From NCBI GenBank assembly GCA_026415695.1, contig JAOAGP010000098.1, positions 1 to 64,000 of the forward strand: DNA of 64,000 nt. The letters are read 5' to 3'. The position numbers and the translations under genes are program-made. Of the stretch, positions 4,149 to 9,311 are shown piece after piece. How positions within the stretch are numbered: the first letter of the stretch is position 1; the number at the start of each line of letters is the position of its first letter. Source of the DNA: Thermodesulfovibrionales bacterium (GTDB lineage Bacteria; Nitrospirota; Thermodesulfovibrionia; Thermodesulfovibrionales; Dissulfurispiraceae). The notes beneath the pieces were generated by a model. It was not told the DNA's origin, ran no database searches, and worked only from the letters and a program-made list of their open reading frames with translations.

Positions 4149-4334
4149 AGAAACTTTTATGCTCATGTAATTAATTGATAAATCTAATATATTTGAGGAG
4201 TTAAGAACCGTGTGTTTAATGCAGGGAACAAAGCAGGAGCCATGAATAACGATACAAATTCCGAGACTATGTGAAAATCCGTTATGTTGATGTAGTAATT
4301 TAAAATTAGAAAAACATGACACAAGAAGTAATTA
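4149..4334. other. Unassigned stretch between clpB and its terminator
   Basis: About 186 bases without a credible coding frame. The 3' part of this stretch leads directly into a strong intrinsic terminator at 4335-4370. It could be the 3' untranslated region of clpB or a small independent RNA. I do not recognise it as tmRNA, 6S, SRP RNA or RNase P. A purine-rich central block around 4217-4243 stands out, but no structure was established by eye. Confidence 0.3.
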
Positions 4335-4370
4335 GATGAGGTAGTTGTGTTTGCAACTACCTCATCTTTT
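4335..4370 (+). terminator. Intrinsic terminator downstream of clpB
   Basis: Perfect 13-bp stem GATGAGGTAGTTG (4335-4347) paired with CAACTACCTCATC (4354-4366), a 6-base loop and a TTTT run. It is the first strong terminator after clpB and ends the heat-shock operon or a small RNA that starts in the preceding 186 bases. Confidence 0.8.
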
Positions 4371-4753
4371 CCGACTTTGTCGGTTTTTAGACATAACCAA
4401 TTGATATATTTATATTCCTATCTTTTATTAGGCACTACTATAAAATCTGCAAGGTTCTTTAAGTGTTCTAATTCACTGTCTGTTAATGCCGTCCCTACAT
4501 GACGGACTATACGCTGTTTTACCTTATTACCAGTCCTTATGTTTTCAACAATCTGGACTGCCTTCTTTGGTGAATTTGGTGAAGTTTTTATTCTGACAAA
4601 CATGATAAATAGAATATACCAGAAACAAAGCAAAAAGTCAAGCACAAAAAACACATTAGGCACTACATAAAGGATTTTCACCTGAAGAAGACATAAATAA
4701 TTGAAATTACTTAAGACTGAAGTTGTAGTTATGAAAAAACTGACAAAGTCGGG
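4371..4753. mobile_element. Decayed IS remnant with terminal inverted repeats
   Basis: The left end CCGACTTTGTCGGTTTTT (4371-4388) and the right end, read on the minus strand from about 4752 (CCGACTTTGTCAGTTTTT), match at 17 of 18 positions; CATAAC follows a few bases inside both ends. Between them lies only the N-terminal part of an IS1634-like transposase on the minus strand (4418-4603), flanked by a 12-bp direct repeat ATTAGGCACTAC (4427-4438 and 4655-4666). This looks like an internally deleted insertion sequence of about 380 bp, similar in form to a MITE. No obvious target-site duplication is visible. The left end is itself a small palindrome followed by T5 and could also act as a terminator. 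Confidence 0.6.
4418..4603 (-). pseudogene. IS1634-like transposase, N-terminal fragment
   Basis: Sixty-one codons starting MFVRIKTSPNSPKKAVQIVE at 4603. This resembles the N-terminus of IS1634/IS4-type transposases (MFVR-K..., then QIVEN-R...G.VKQR.V..VG). Full-length members of this group are about 500-600 residues and carry a DDE catalytic core, which is entirely missing here. The frame ends soon after the DNA repeat GTAGTGCCTAAT, where an internal deletion probably joined unrelated sequence. The upstream in-frame extension to 4681 encodes a hydrophobic, non-family sequence and is not counted. It cannot encode an active enzyme. Family assignment is from recognition of the N-terminal pattern only. 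Confidence 0.65.
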
Positions 4754-5245: not shown

Positions 5246-8020
5246 ATGAAAACACAGTTTTGCATTTCTGCGTTAGTATTGTTTTTCTTAATACCAACGG
5301 TTGCCTTTGCTGGGCAAAATGAGGCGTATGAGGCTGCAAAGGAATCGTTTGAAAAGTTAAATACTACTTATTCTATGGTTAAGAATACTGTTGATGAAAC
5401 ATACGAAGTCTTTGCGAGGTTTAATAATGGTGTTAGAACATGGAGAAATGCGGTTACAAGGGAGACTCAAAACATGGGCATAGAAGAGATTGATAAACTT
5501 GCTGATGATAAGATTGAGGCAGTTATTGATAAGTTATTTGATAAGGCTAAAGAGGCAATCGGTATTCCAGATGGAATAGAGTTGGAGATTCCAGAGTCAA
5601 TGAAGGAAAAGGCAATAGAAAAATTAAGAAACAAGTTGAAGGGATATATCCCACCTAAAGTAGTAAATAGATTAGGTTATATGTATACATTAAGTGCCCT
5701 TGACAGAAAACTAAGAGACAACAACATCTATAGCAATCTTGAATATCTAAAGAGTAGTTTTGACAAAGGGGCAAAATTACTTGGAAACTTCAAAAATGCG
5801 ATAAAGTTTATAGATACCTTTTCACCAAGAAGCACGATTGACAGCCCCGTTGGAAGGCTAAAGAATGTGAAGGATTTTCTTGGGATGATAGGAGACATCG
5901 CAAAACCAATACCGTTGATGGGGACGATTATAAACAACTATGCTAAGGCTACTGATGCCTTCATGACCGCTCTCAATGACCTTGATAATAAGTTAAAAGA
6001 GGCTCGTCAAGGGTCACTTTGTGGCCAAGGAGGTGTTGATAGAGACATCCAAGACTTTTTTGAAAGGACATATCCGACTCAAGACTGCCTTACTTACTTT
6101 GCATTGCCTTCAAGTGAATATCCTCAACTTAATCCAATAAGGGCATGGAGAGGCAATTATATATTTGTCTGGTTTGAAGGCAATGGAACAATGGTTAGAG
6201 AAAGTGACTTTGAGATTTTATATAGGGCGTTTTCATCTCTTACAAATAACTATACATATAGACAATTGGTCAATCATGGACTTTTTTATAATCTCATAAA
6301 GTCATCGCATTATACAAATGTTAGAGGTCTTGCAAGCAGGGCAAAGGAGATTCATAAAAGGTTTATGAGTTATGAGTTTTCTGATGTCTTAAAGATGGAA
6401 GGATTTTATAAGGATGACTACATAGACTATTTTGTGGCTCCAAGCGGGAATGCCTACAGGTTGTTGTTGGATGCAGACGAATTTGTTGGTCTTTATTTCT
6501 TTAGTAAGACCTTTAAGGATGATGTTGAGTCATTGTACAACAAATACAAAAATGCCTTTGTAATCAATGGCACTATCAAGCCAGAGACCCCAAATATGAG
6601 CATTGCTAATATATCTGTATTTGTTGATAATCAACCCCCTAAAGAACTTAAATGTGCGGAGTTTTGCACCTTAAGACATGTGGTTTACAATGGTAGATAC
6701 AATATCAGGGTAGTGGCTGAAGGGTTTAAGGATGTGAATAAGACCTTTCAAAACGATCGTTATCCCCTTGTTATGCTTTCTATGTCAAGTCTTAAGATTG
6801 AGGCAGATAAAAAAAATGTTACAGTTGGTCAAAAGGTTATACTTACAGCCATCCTTGAAGGTAGAGTAGCACAGACTGGGAGATTCTACTGGTCAATAAA
6901 TGGAAAACCTTATGGAAGTAACACTAACAGGATAGAATTTGTGCCTACTCAATCTGGTATCTATAAAGCCAATTTAACTCTTGCAGATGATAGGGGTAGG
7001 ATTATTCTTCAGGCAGATTATTCTATTAATGTGATTGAGCAATTAACTTTATATATCCAAGGTCCGTCTGAGGTTCAACGGGATGTTGAGACGACATTTT
7101 ATGCCCAAGTAAAAGGTGGACTGTTTAGTCAAGATAAGGGGATATATACATACTCATGGCAATTGAACGGACAGCAATACGGCGGGAATGATAACTTCAT
7201 CAAGGTCAGATTTAACAAGGAAGGTAGTCAATCTATCAAGACAACCCTATGGCAATGGATAAAAGAGCAAAACAAATGGCAGAAGGTAACAGAGGCATCT
7301 CACTATTTAGTAGTAAAATCTGCACAGCAGGTCTTCATCAATGTTACTATCACAGGACCAACAAACGGATACATAGGTAATGACTTTGTATTTTATGCAA
7401 ACATAGAAAATCCTCAAAGATTAAGAGAGATTGTCAATGTTTCTAATCCACAGACGGCATTTAGATGGCGGATTAACAATAGTCCTTATGGTGGGACAGA
7501 TGGTTCACAGAGGATACGATTTGAAAATTCAGGTAAACACACAATATCTGTGATAGCATGGGTGTGGAATCCTTCAAGTAAAAATTGGATAAAGATCGGA
7601 GAGGCAAATCACATCTTTGAGGCGTTTAGTAGGCAATATACTGATAGAAGATATACACTTAAGCCCATCCCCACCCCAACACCAACACCAACTCAAACCC
7701 CTACTCCAAAATCCACTCCCACTCCTACTCCTACGCCGAAGGTAAGACAATTTAGTGAATTAAGTCCTCAAGAGCAAAAAGAGGTTCTCAATTGTCTTTG
7801 TAGGTGTAATAGCACTGCAACATCATCAGTTTCGGTTTATTATGATACTAAACCAGACAACCACTCACCCAGTTGTAGTGATTTAAAAAACGGTCCGTGT
7901 GTTAATAAGGGATTTGGATGTTGGCGTCATGTCCCACAAAACACTGGACAATGTGCAGAGCGATGTTATAAGTCTCACAATGTCCATTCTGTGCCGAGTA
8001 GTTATATGAATGCAAGGTAG
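5246..8020 (+). CDS. Secreted multidomain Ig-like protein with Pro-Thr linker
   Basis: A 924-residue exported protein of unknown function. Signal peptide 1-22 ends VAFA before GQNE. Next is a helical region (about 25-260), then a mixed region with a PEGA-like segment near 460-520. Three related beta-sandwich repeats follow, marked by WSINGKPYG (about 548), WQLNGQQYGG (about 637) and WRINNSPYGG (about 740), each followed by an IRF-type strand. A PTPTPT-rich linker (about 808-832) leads to a C-terminal domain with eight cysteines, probably disulphide-bonded. No catalytic motif or membrane anchor is seen. AGGAGAGG precedes the ATG. Its last 11 bases overlap a TMTC-like glycosyltransferase gene, suggesting the pair works together, with the linker or Ig-like domains as possible acceptors. 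The function is inference. Confidence 0.72.
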   Translation: MKTQFCISALVLFFLIPTVAFAGQNEAYEAAKESFEKLNTTYSMVKNTVDETYEVFARFNNGVRTWRNAVTRETQNMGIEEIDKLADDKIEAVIDKLFDKAKEAIGIPDGIELEIPESMKEKAIEKLRNKLKGYIPPKVVNRLGYMYTLSALDRKLRDNNIYSNLEYLKSSFDKGAKLLGNFKNAIKFIDTFSPRSTIDSPVGRLKNVKDFLGMIGDIAKPIPLMGTIINNYAKATDAFMTALNDLDNKLKEARQGSLCGQGGVDRDIQDFFERTYPTQDCLTYFALPSSEYPQLNPIRAWRGNYIFVWFEGNGTMVRESDFEILYRAFSSLTNNYTYRQLVNHGLFYNLIKSSHYTNVRGLASRAKEIHKRFMSYEFSDVLKMEGFYKDDYIDYFVAPSGNAYRLLLDADEFVGLYFFSKTFKDDVESLYNKYKNAFVINGTIKPETPNMSIANISVFVDNQPPKELKCAEFCTLRHVVYNGRYNIRVVAEGFKDVNKTFQNDRYPLVMLSMSSLKIEADKKNVTVGQKVILTAILEGRVAQTGRFYWSINGKPYGSNTNRIEFVPTQSGIYKANLTLADDRGRIILQADYSINVIEQLTLYIQGPSEVQRDVETTFYAQVKGGLFSQDKGIYTYSWQLNGQQYGGNDNFIKVRFNKEGSQSIKTTLWQWIKEQNKWQKVTEASHYLVVKSAQQVFINVTITGPTNGYIGNDFVFYANIENPQRLREIVNVSNPQTAFRWRINNSPYGGTDGSQRIRFENSGKHTISVIAWVWNPSSKNWIKIGEANHIFEAFSRQYTDRRYTLKPIPTPTPTPTQTPTPKSTPTPTPTPKVRQFSELSPQEQKEVLNCLCRCNSTATSSVSVYYDTKPDNHSPSCSDLKNGPCVNKGFGCWRHVPQNTGQCAERCYKSHNVHSVPSSYMNAR

Positions 8021-9311
8021 TCTTTTTATAGTTGTACTAACAGTTTTAGTTGCTTACTATAATTCGTTTTATGGAGTGTTTCAATTTGATGATTTTAATG
8101 TAATCGTTGACAATCAGAGGGTTCACTCATGGGAGGGATTCATTGGTGAACTGCCTCTTACGATTAGACCCCTGCTTAAGTTTACATATACGATAAACTG
8201 GATATCAGGCATGGGGATATTTGGTTATCACCTTTTTAACCTCTCTATACACATAATCAACACAATCCTCATATTTCATCTGATTAGGTCTATATCAATA
8301 AAGGATTTTGAAGAAAAACAAGCAGTCTCTATTGCGTTGCTTTCAACAATACTATTTGCACTACATCCCATTCAGACAGAGGCAGTAACATACATCTCTG
8401 GCAGGTCATCATCCATGATGACCATGTTTGTATTAATAAGCGTTTTATCCTATATCAAAGGTAATGAGATTGTTAGCAGACCCTTGCTTTATGTCGTATC
8501 ACCACTTTCTTATTTATGTGCTGTAGCTACTAAAGAGGTTGCAATATTTACCCCGTTAGTTTTACTCCTTTATAGTTGTCTTTACCTTAAAATGCAAAAA
8601 CTCATAAAAACACAGTGGGTTCATTGGCTGATATTCTTTTTAATTATTCCTATTATGCTTTTTACAAAGAGATACTCAGAAATCGTGTTTAGCGGTCTTG
8701 ATAAGATGGATTTTTTCAAAAACTTGGATTTTACCTTAAGGGGAGTTTTTTATAACCTCTCAAAGGTCTTTTTCGTTACGGAGTTAAACATAGACCCATC
8801 TCCTTCTCTGTTATATGATGATAGCACAGTGTATTGGTTTGTCTTTGCAATCATAATAATCACAACGATCATCACCGTAAAAAAGCACAGATGGTTTTCT
8901 TTTTCTGTTGCGTGGTTTATGATATTTCTATTGCCATATTTTCTCATTCCGCGAGGTGATATCCTAAACGAAAGGAATCTATATGTTTGTATGCCTGCGT
9001 TGTTTCTTGGTTTGTCTGTGATTGTCCATCGTGTTTTATCAAATCTTTGGGTCAAAAGATTGATGTTTGCCTGTCTCTTAGTTGCTCTTTGTGTTTTGAC
9101 TCATCATCGCAATACCGTTTATTACTCTGAGATTTCCCTTTGGCAAGACACGGTAAAAAAATCCCCTGATAATACAAGGGCACTTATAAATCTTGGCTAT
9201 GCATACTCGCAAAAGGGGATGCACAAAGAGGCAGAGTATTGGTTAAAAAAGGCAACAGAGACTAACAATCATGATGTTGCCTTTGAAAAGGCAAAGTCCT
9301 TGATGAATTGA
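8010..9311 (+). CDS. TMTC-like membrane O-glycosyltransferase (GT-C fold, TPR)
   Basis: A polytopic 433-residue protein resembling bacterial relatives of eukaryotic TMTC O-mannosyltransferases. An N-terminal hydrophobic helix is followed by FDDF near 26-29 (the acidic pair typical of GT-C enzymes in the first external loop), then HPIQTEAVTYISGR about 118-131 and ERNLYV near 320, all landmarks of the TMTC family. At least eight hydrophobic segments come before one or two TPR units at about 385-425. Such enzymes take sugar from a polyprenyl-phosphate donor and modify exported proteins. The ATG lies inside the end of the preceding secreted-protein gene, so translation is probably coupled. Its 3' end overlaps the convergent HD gene by 43 bases. 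Donor sugar and target are unknown. Confidence 0.72.
   Translation: MQGSLFIVVLTVLVAYYNSFYGVFQFDDFNVIVDNQRVHSWEGFIGELPLTIRPLLKFTYTINWISGMGIFGYHLFNLSIHIINTILIFHLIRSISIKDFEEKQAVSIALLSTILFALHPIQTEAVTYISGRSSSMMTMFVLISVLSYIKGNEIVSRPLLYVVSPLSYLCAVATKEVAIFTPLVLLLYSCLYLKMQKLIKTQWVHWLIFFLIIPIMLFTKRYSEIVFSGLDKMDFFKNLDFTLRGVFYNLSKVFFVTELNIDPSPSLLYDDSTVYWFVFAIIIITTIITVKKHRWFSFSVAWFMIFLLPYFLIPRGDILNERNLYVCMPALFLGLSVIVHRVLSNLWVKRLMFACLLVALCVLTHHRNTVYYSEISLWQDTVKKSPDNTRALINLGYAYSQKGMHKEAEYWLKKATETNNHDVAFEKAKSLMN

Follow-up and report, generated by a model that had tools for sequence, protein, structure and literature searches.

The gene pair

Within the window analysed here, a stretch of 64,000 nucleotides (nt) from a Thermodesulfovibrionales bacterium (contig JAOAGP010000098.1 of assembly GCA_026415695.1), two overlapping genes encode an exported protein with immunoglobulin-like (Ig-like) domains, P0001 (5246..8020; 924 residues), and a membrane protein, P0002 (8010..9311; 433 residues), which probably acts as a glycosyltransferase; the possible relation of the two as acceptor and enzyme is the subject of this text. 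All features of the pair lie on the plus strand. Both open reading frames (ORFs) and their overlap of 11 nt (8010..8020), to which a first-pass annotation made from the sequence had drawn attention, are present as described; the ATG of the P0002 gene falls within Met-Asn-Ala codons of P0001, a position which is kept in a congener. The overlap implies that the genes are co-transcribed, and possibly they are coupled in translation as well. No sugar-biosynthesis gene directly adjoins P0002.

The membrane protein P0002

That P0002 is polytopic, as had been claimed, was borne out, and its AlphaFold model (m75992d8e6c46), built from a 25-sequence alignment, is a confident one (predicted local distance difference test, pLDDT, 89; predicted template modelling score 0.90). 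By this model it is a protein of the glycosyltransferase C (GT-C) fold with a short tail of tetratricopeptide repeats (TPRs). The 16 best Foldseek matches of the model in the PDB are all GT-C proteins (STT3 of oligosaccharyltransferases (OSTs), ArnT, PglB, AglB, and Pmt4; probability 1.00), ArnT (5f15) being second; with a best E-value of 2.5e-3 and template modelling scores of about 0.5 the likeness lies at the level of the fold and is not close. These solved enzymes share 10–16% identity with P0002 and carry other C-terminal domains. Comparison of folds was used because profile searches of the PDB were uninformative: the membrane part retrieved chance matches to LptG only, and the full alignment only TPR proteins.

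The residues that vary little or not at all among 24 relatives are present in P0002 (D27, D28, R53, K175, E176, E321, and Y325, among others), and D27 is invariant across the 25 aligned sequences. Of the motif set of the human TMTC enzymes (PMC7801869), P0002 has the DD of M1 in the first periplasmic loop (D27-D28; 8088..8093), the RP of M2, and the ERxxY of M7 (E321-R-N-L-Y325; 8970..8984). From M4, KE(T/Q)xxT, the core K175-E176 is present (8532..8537) and the remainder differs (KEVAIF); M5 reads DP instead of DW, the Asp being kept and the Trp lost; and the RxD of M3 in the second periplasmic loop is replaced by RSS, with R132 kept and Ser in place of Asp. The TPR region (residues ~375–419; 9132..9266) consists of helical pairs in the model, with a TPR_1 match at residues 390–419 that stays below the Pfam cut-off. 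No match to DUF1736 (PF08409) was obtained by hmmscan at E-values up to 1 for P0002 or the 24 relatives; a six-frame search of 150 genomes for this domain was empty, but so were its controls, and it is not used as proof of absence. Pfam PMT and PMT_2 do not match P0002 either, and PMT_2 matches 1/25 relatives (E 0.002).

The resemblance to animal protein O-mannosyltransferases TMTC1–4 (CAZy GT105) that had been noticed from the sequence thus holds for part of the features compared: the GT-C fold, the order of a GT-C membrane domain followed by TPR-like sequence (below cut-off in P0002), and the DD, RP, KE (of M4 the core only), and ERxxY motifs are common to both, as are a presumed lipid-phosphate-sugar donor and a proposed Ig-type acceptor; P0002 differs in being bacterial, in M3 and M5, and in its one or two TPRs. 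As it lacks a DUF1736 match and its TPR region is short and below cut-off, P0002 is called TMTC-like here and not a TMTC. It probably acts as a TMTC-type or another GT-C transferase does.

The exported protein P0001

Export of P0001 had been proposed, and its start indeed reads, by eye, as a classical signal: a probable cleavable signal peptide of 22 residues (5246..5311; MKTQFCISALVLFFLIPTVAFA), ending in TVAFA and cleaved before a G. Its AlphaFold model (ma497cc4d7145) starts with an N-terminal half made of long helices, followed by an alpha/beta domain and four beta-sandwich blocks; the Thr-Pro linker behind these is disordered, and a Cys tail comes last. The model is a modest one (mean pLDDT 66.6, four sequences only), and the domain borders are therefore approximate. 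According to the model and comparison with relatives, the helical N-terminal region spans residues ~26–256 (5321..6013) and the alpha/beta domain residues ~266–434 (6041..6547). A PEGA-like beta block (residues ~438–511; 6557..6778) is followed by three Ig-like domains, at residues ~512–597 (6779..7036), ~600–691 (7043..7318), and ~700–795 (7343..7630), the third of which is absent from the orthologue in one congener, G002. The first is matched by the Pfam profile BiPBP_C above its cut-off (38.8 versus 26.8 bits) and by PKD just below (20 versus 23.5 bits), and Ig-type folds dominate the structure matches of the model, including those of the first and second domains. Of the PEGA-like and three Ig-like repeats originally described, the Ig-like part is supported by profile and structure matches, whereas PEGA stays at 13.4 bits against a cut-off of 20.8.

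The Thr-Pro-rich linker (residues ~806–838; 7661..7759) and the Cys-rich tail were likewise found again. The former is Thr/Pro-rich in both congeners too; the latter is a module of eight cysteines (7757..8017; CxCxC...C...GPC...GxGCWR...C...C) which has no Pfam match and occurs in 11/396 Nitrospirota genomes, within or at the end of otherwise unrelated proteins (the loci are, besides that in the window, L050, L051, L055, L056, L057, and L174–L180). Once it makes up a stand-alone, apparently exported protein of 132 residues.

The pair in related genomes

Full orthologues of P0001 among 150 related genomes are encoded only by the congeners G001 (57% identity) and G002 (55%). A pattern-based scan of ~85,000 species genomes, the sensitivity of which is limited, retrieved no orthologue beyond the genus; none was found on plasmids, and a P0001 profile run against the surveyed TMTC-like loci (see below) matched only the P0001 of the window. 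The pair is intact in the window's own genome (G000); of the linked enzyme gene, G001 keeps a decayed copy and G002 no trace.

The decayed copy lies on contig C40 of G001 (L050:11952-12041), where the P0001 orthologue, a complete frame of 940 residues, is followed by a 29-codon remnant, MQVNRLLFILAATVIAYSNSLLGDFQFYD, and then a stop. The ATG of the remnant is located within the last P0001 codons, at those for Met-Asn-Ala, which also harbour the P0002 ATG in the window. When compared with 91 TMTC-like proteins, the remnant is most similar to that of locus L053, the nearest relative of P0002, and next to P0002 itself. A search of 1.4 Mb of related DNA with the N-termini of these two proteins found only two places of at least 26 bits outside the catalogued TMTC-like genes: the remnant, with 35.4 bits and E 2.5e-5, and, within a control region, a true TMTC-like gene; a profile (hidden Markov model) search retrieved the remnant independently (E 3.4e-4). 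A further short stretch, NAEEALGEAMRLRQ, may be a C-terminal piece of the same remnant.

Because G001 retains a remnant of the same subfamily at the same overlap, the sequences indicate that the operon of P0001 and the transferase is older than the split of the window's species from G001, and that in G001 the enzyme decayed while P0001 stayed intact. The enzyme is therefore to be regarded as an accessory of P0001, or as acting on something else, rather than as an obligate partner. The first-pass annotation had made the pairing depend on co-occurrence of the genes in related genomes; the intact pair is found in one of the three genomes of the genus, which taken alone would refute the pairing, but the remnant weighs otherwise. 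A simpler explanation, that the pair is absent in congeners and hence due to chance adjacency, was dropped in view of the remnant. Comparison of synteny around the HD-domain and htpG genes was uninformative, as the HD gene of G001 has other neighbours and no trace of P0001 was seen near the own-genome htpG.

The relative at L053 (460 residues, 41–42% identity) is encoded in G029, a genome of another genus, between a TPR gene and a gene for a small exported protein; no P0001 was detected in this genome, which is only 80% complete. On the tree it is the sister of P0002 (Shimodaira–Hasegawa-like approximate likelihood ratio test 98). A paralogue of P0001 (491 residues, 35% identity) is encoded beside a ksgA-like gene in the window's own genome (contig C21; L052:9412-10887); it shares the alpha/beta domain and lacks the helical N-terminal half, the third Ig domain, the linker, and the Cys tail.

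TMTC-like genes and their neighbours in the order

TMTC-like genes are present in 91 of the 150 related genomes, with up to 17 per genome. Their products belong to the same family as P0002 by sequence (E down to 1e-83) and share the core of the fold and the motifs; they differ in that they mostly have several TPRs and ~470–770 residues, and in their neighbours, many adjoining genes for pilins or family GT2 proteins and none of those surveyed adjoining a relative of P0001. The survey covered 66 TMTC-like loci of the order, with 390 genes in 20 stretches as controls; since the loci were picked from matches to P0002 and are related to one another, the counts are not independent. Type IV prepilins adjacent to TMTC-like genes number 16/134, as against 1/390 control genes, and the single control pilin itself adjoins a TMTC-like gene. 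In terms of Pfam families, N_methyl was assigned to 16/128 of the neighbours and GT2 to 15/128, while GT2-like genes make up 3/390 of the controls. Direct adjacency to a prepilin is seen in several genera (L054, L060, L073, L084, L090, L104, L107, L112, L113, L118, L123). At four loci (L069, L080, L091, L094) TMTC-like paralogues stand three or four in a row or close together.

Linkage to pilins clusters on the tree of the family, requiring 5 changes as compared to 13.2 in shuffles; P0002 and its sister at L053 are not pilin-linked and fall outside the main pilin-linked clades. The intact TMTC-like gene of G001 begins 5 nt behind a pilin gene, and its nearest relative, from another genus, also adjoins a pilin; the window's own genome encodes 11 prepilin-like proteins scoring over the Pfam cut-off. 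This gene order suggests that some members of the TMTC-like family have pilins as their acceptors, and the pilin loci are a precedent for an arrangement in which a putative exported acceptor is followed by its transferase.

What P0002 may act on

The reading to which we lean, tentatively and with somewhat less than even confidence, is that P0002 is an accessory GT-C protein glycosyltransferase of the inner membrane for which P0001 is the likeliest local acceptor, the latter because it would be made from the same message. P0002 would sit in the inner membrane with its DD loop and TPR tail on the periplasmic side and would take a sugar from a polyprenyl-phosphate-sugar donor; the site formed by DD, KE, and ERxxY would then transfer it, in the periplasm, to an exported protein which the TPR tail may help to hold. 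P0001 could accept the sugar on its Ig-like strands or on the Thr-Pro linker. The pair formed before the window's species split from G001, and the enzyme was lost at least once with P0001 remaining intact.

A more far-reaching version, with a bacterial TMTC-like transferase and a co-encoded Ig-domain acceptor, O-glycosylation directed to beta-sandwich domains in a member of the Nitrospirota, in parallel to the pathway of TMTC enzymes and cadherins, and other branches of the family serving type IV pilins, seems unlikely.

Several observations weigh against P0001 as the acceptor. Neither congener has an intact transferase beside its P0001 orthologue, and the Thr-Pro linker and Ig domains of P0001 are kept where the linked enzyme is gone; the P0001 paralogue has no transferase neighbour; Ig or PEGA families are not among the recurrent neighbours of the TMTC-like family at the 66 loci; and P0002 has fewer TPRs than most of its relatives. 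The acceptor could also be a different molecule altogether. As to the domains retained in the congeners, each of these organisms has one unlinked TMTC-like gene, the product of which might substitute for the linked enzyme; for this reason their retention does not exclude P0001 as the acceptor, nor does it identify the target. That P0002 is a transferase "dedicated" to its own acceptor, as was first suggested, is consistent with the overlap and with a linkage older than the species, but the congeners, the paralogue, G029, and the neighbours of related transferases speak against it.

It is a real possibility, though on balance a doubtful one, that P0002 is a genuine GT-C protein glycosyltransferase whose acceptors are encoded elsewhere, type IV pilins for example, and that its place behind P0001 is an accident through which it gained a promoter. 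The frequency of prepilins beside TMTC-like genes, the clustering of this linkage on the tree, the pilin just in front of the intact gene of G001, the prepilin-like genes of the window's own genome, and the occurrence of the nearest P0002 relative in a genome in which P0001 was not detected would all fit such an accretion. However, P0002 and L053 are not pilin-linked and stand apart from the main pilin-linked clades, and survival of the same overlap in the G001 remnant rules out a very recent accident as the origin of the linkage.

An acceptor other than a protein is improbable. P0002 would then work like ArnT or GT-C enzymes that modify polysaccharides, which agrees with the rank of ArnT among the structure matches and with the GT2 genes frequent near the family, and the GT-C fold as such does not fix the class of acceptor; yet TPR tails belong to protein transferases of the TMTC type (PMC11292533), pilin genes recur beside members of the family, and P0002 has no sugar-biosynthesis gene directly beside it. 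Finally, that P0002 is an inactive relic losing its TPR region, for which the decay in G001 and its own shortness and few TPRs might be taken, is likewise improbable given that its 433 codons form an open frame in which the residues invariant in the family are present, a confident GT-C model, and a sister protein nearly as short (460 residues).

Other features of the locus

Between clpB and P0001, two overlapping, near-perfect inverted repeats (4271-4752; arms of 17 nt and 18 nt, 94%) flank a small ORF on the minus strand (4418-4681) without a match to transposase profiles; the arrangement resembles a degraded insertion element. Further downstream, in the intergenic region preceding P0001 (4800-4910), short repeats of the CCTTGAACCCTTGA type are followed by an imperfect palindrome of 28 nt (CTCTGTGTCTCTGC...ACCACAGAGACATGG).

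Known systems and significance

The human TMTC enzymes and TMEM260 O-mannosylate domains of the Ig fold, with recruitment of the substrate as the proposed role of their TPRs (PMC11292533). The solved GT-C enzymes that resemble the P0002 model most act on diverse acceptors: ArnT acts on lipid A, OSTs move oligosaccharides to Asn, and Pmt4 transfers mannose to Ser/Thr. A parallel in function for the pilin-linked relatives of P0002 is offered by the type IV pilin O-glycosyltransferases (TfpO/PilO and TfpW), membrane transferases encoded beside the pilin that they modify; these enzymes are not known to have TPRs. The combination of a gene for a GT-C/TPR transferase with a neighbouring one for an exported protein is a variant of a known arrangement.

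If P0002 modifies P0001, the pair would be a simple system of two genes in which to see how GT-C enzymes that bear TPRs choose folded beta-sandwich substrates, a choice which is an open question for the human TMTCs. Independent of P0001, a class of pilin glycosyltransferases is suggested by the adjacency to pilins; searches of the open literature retrieved no direct description of bacterial TMTC homologues or of pilin transferases with TPRs, nor of such a class under this architecture. For the family at large, the general association with pilins may be a more useful lead than the pairing with P0001.

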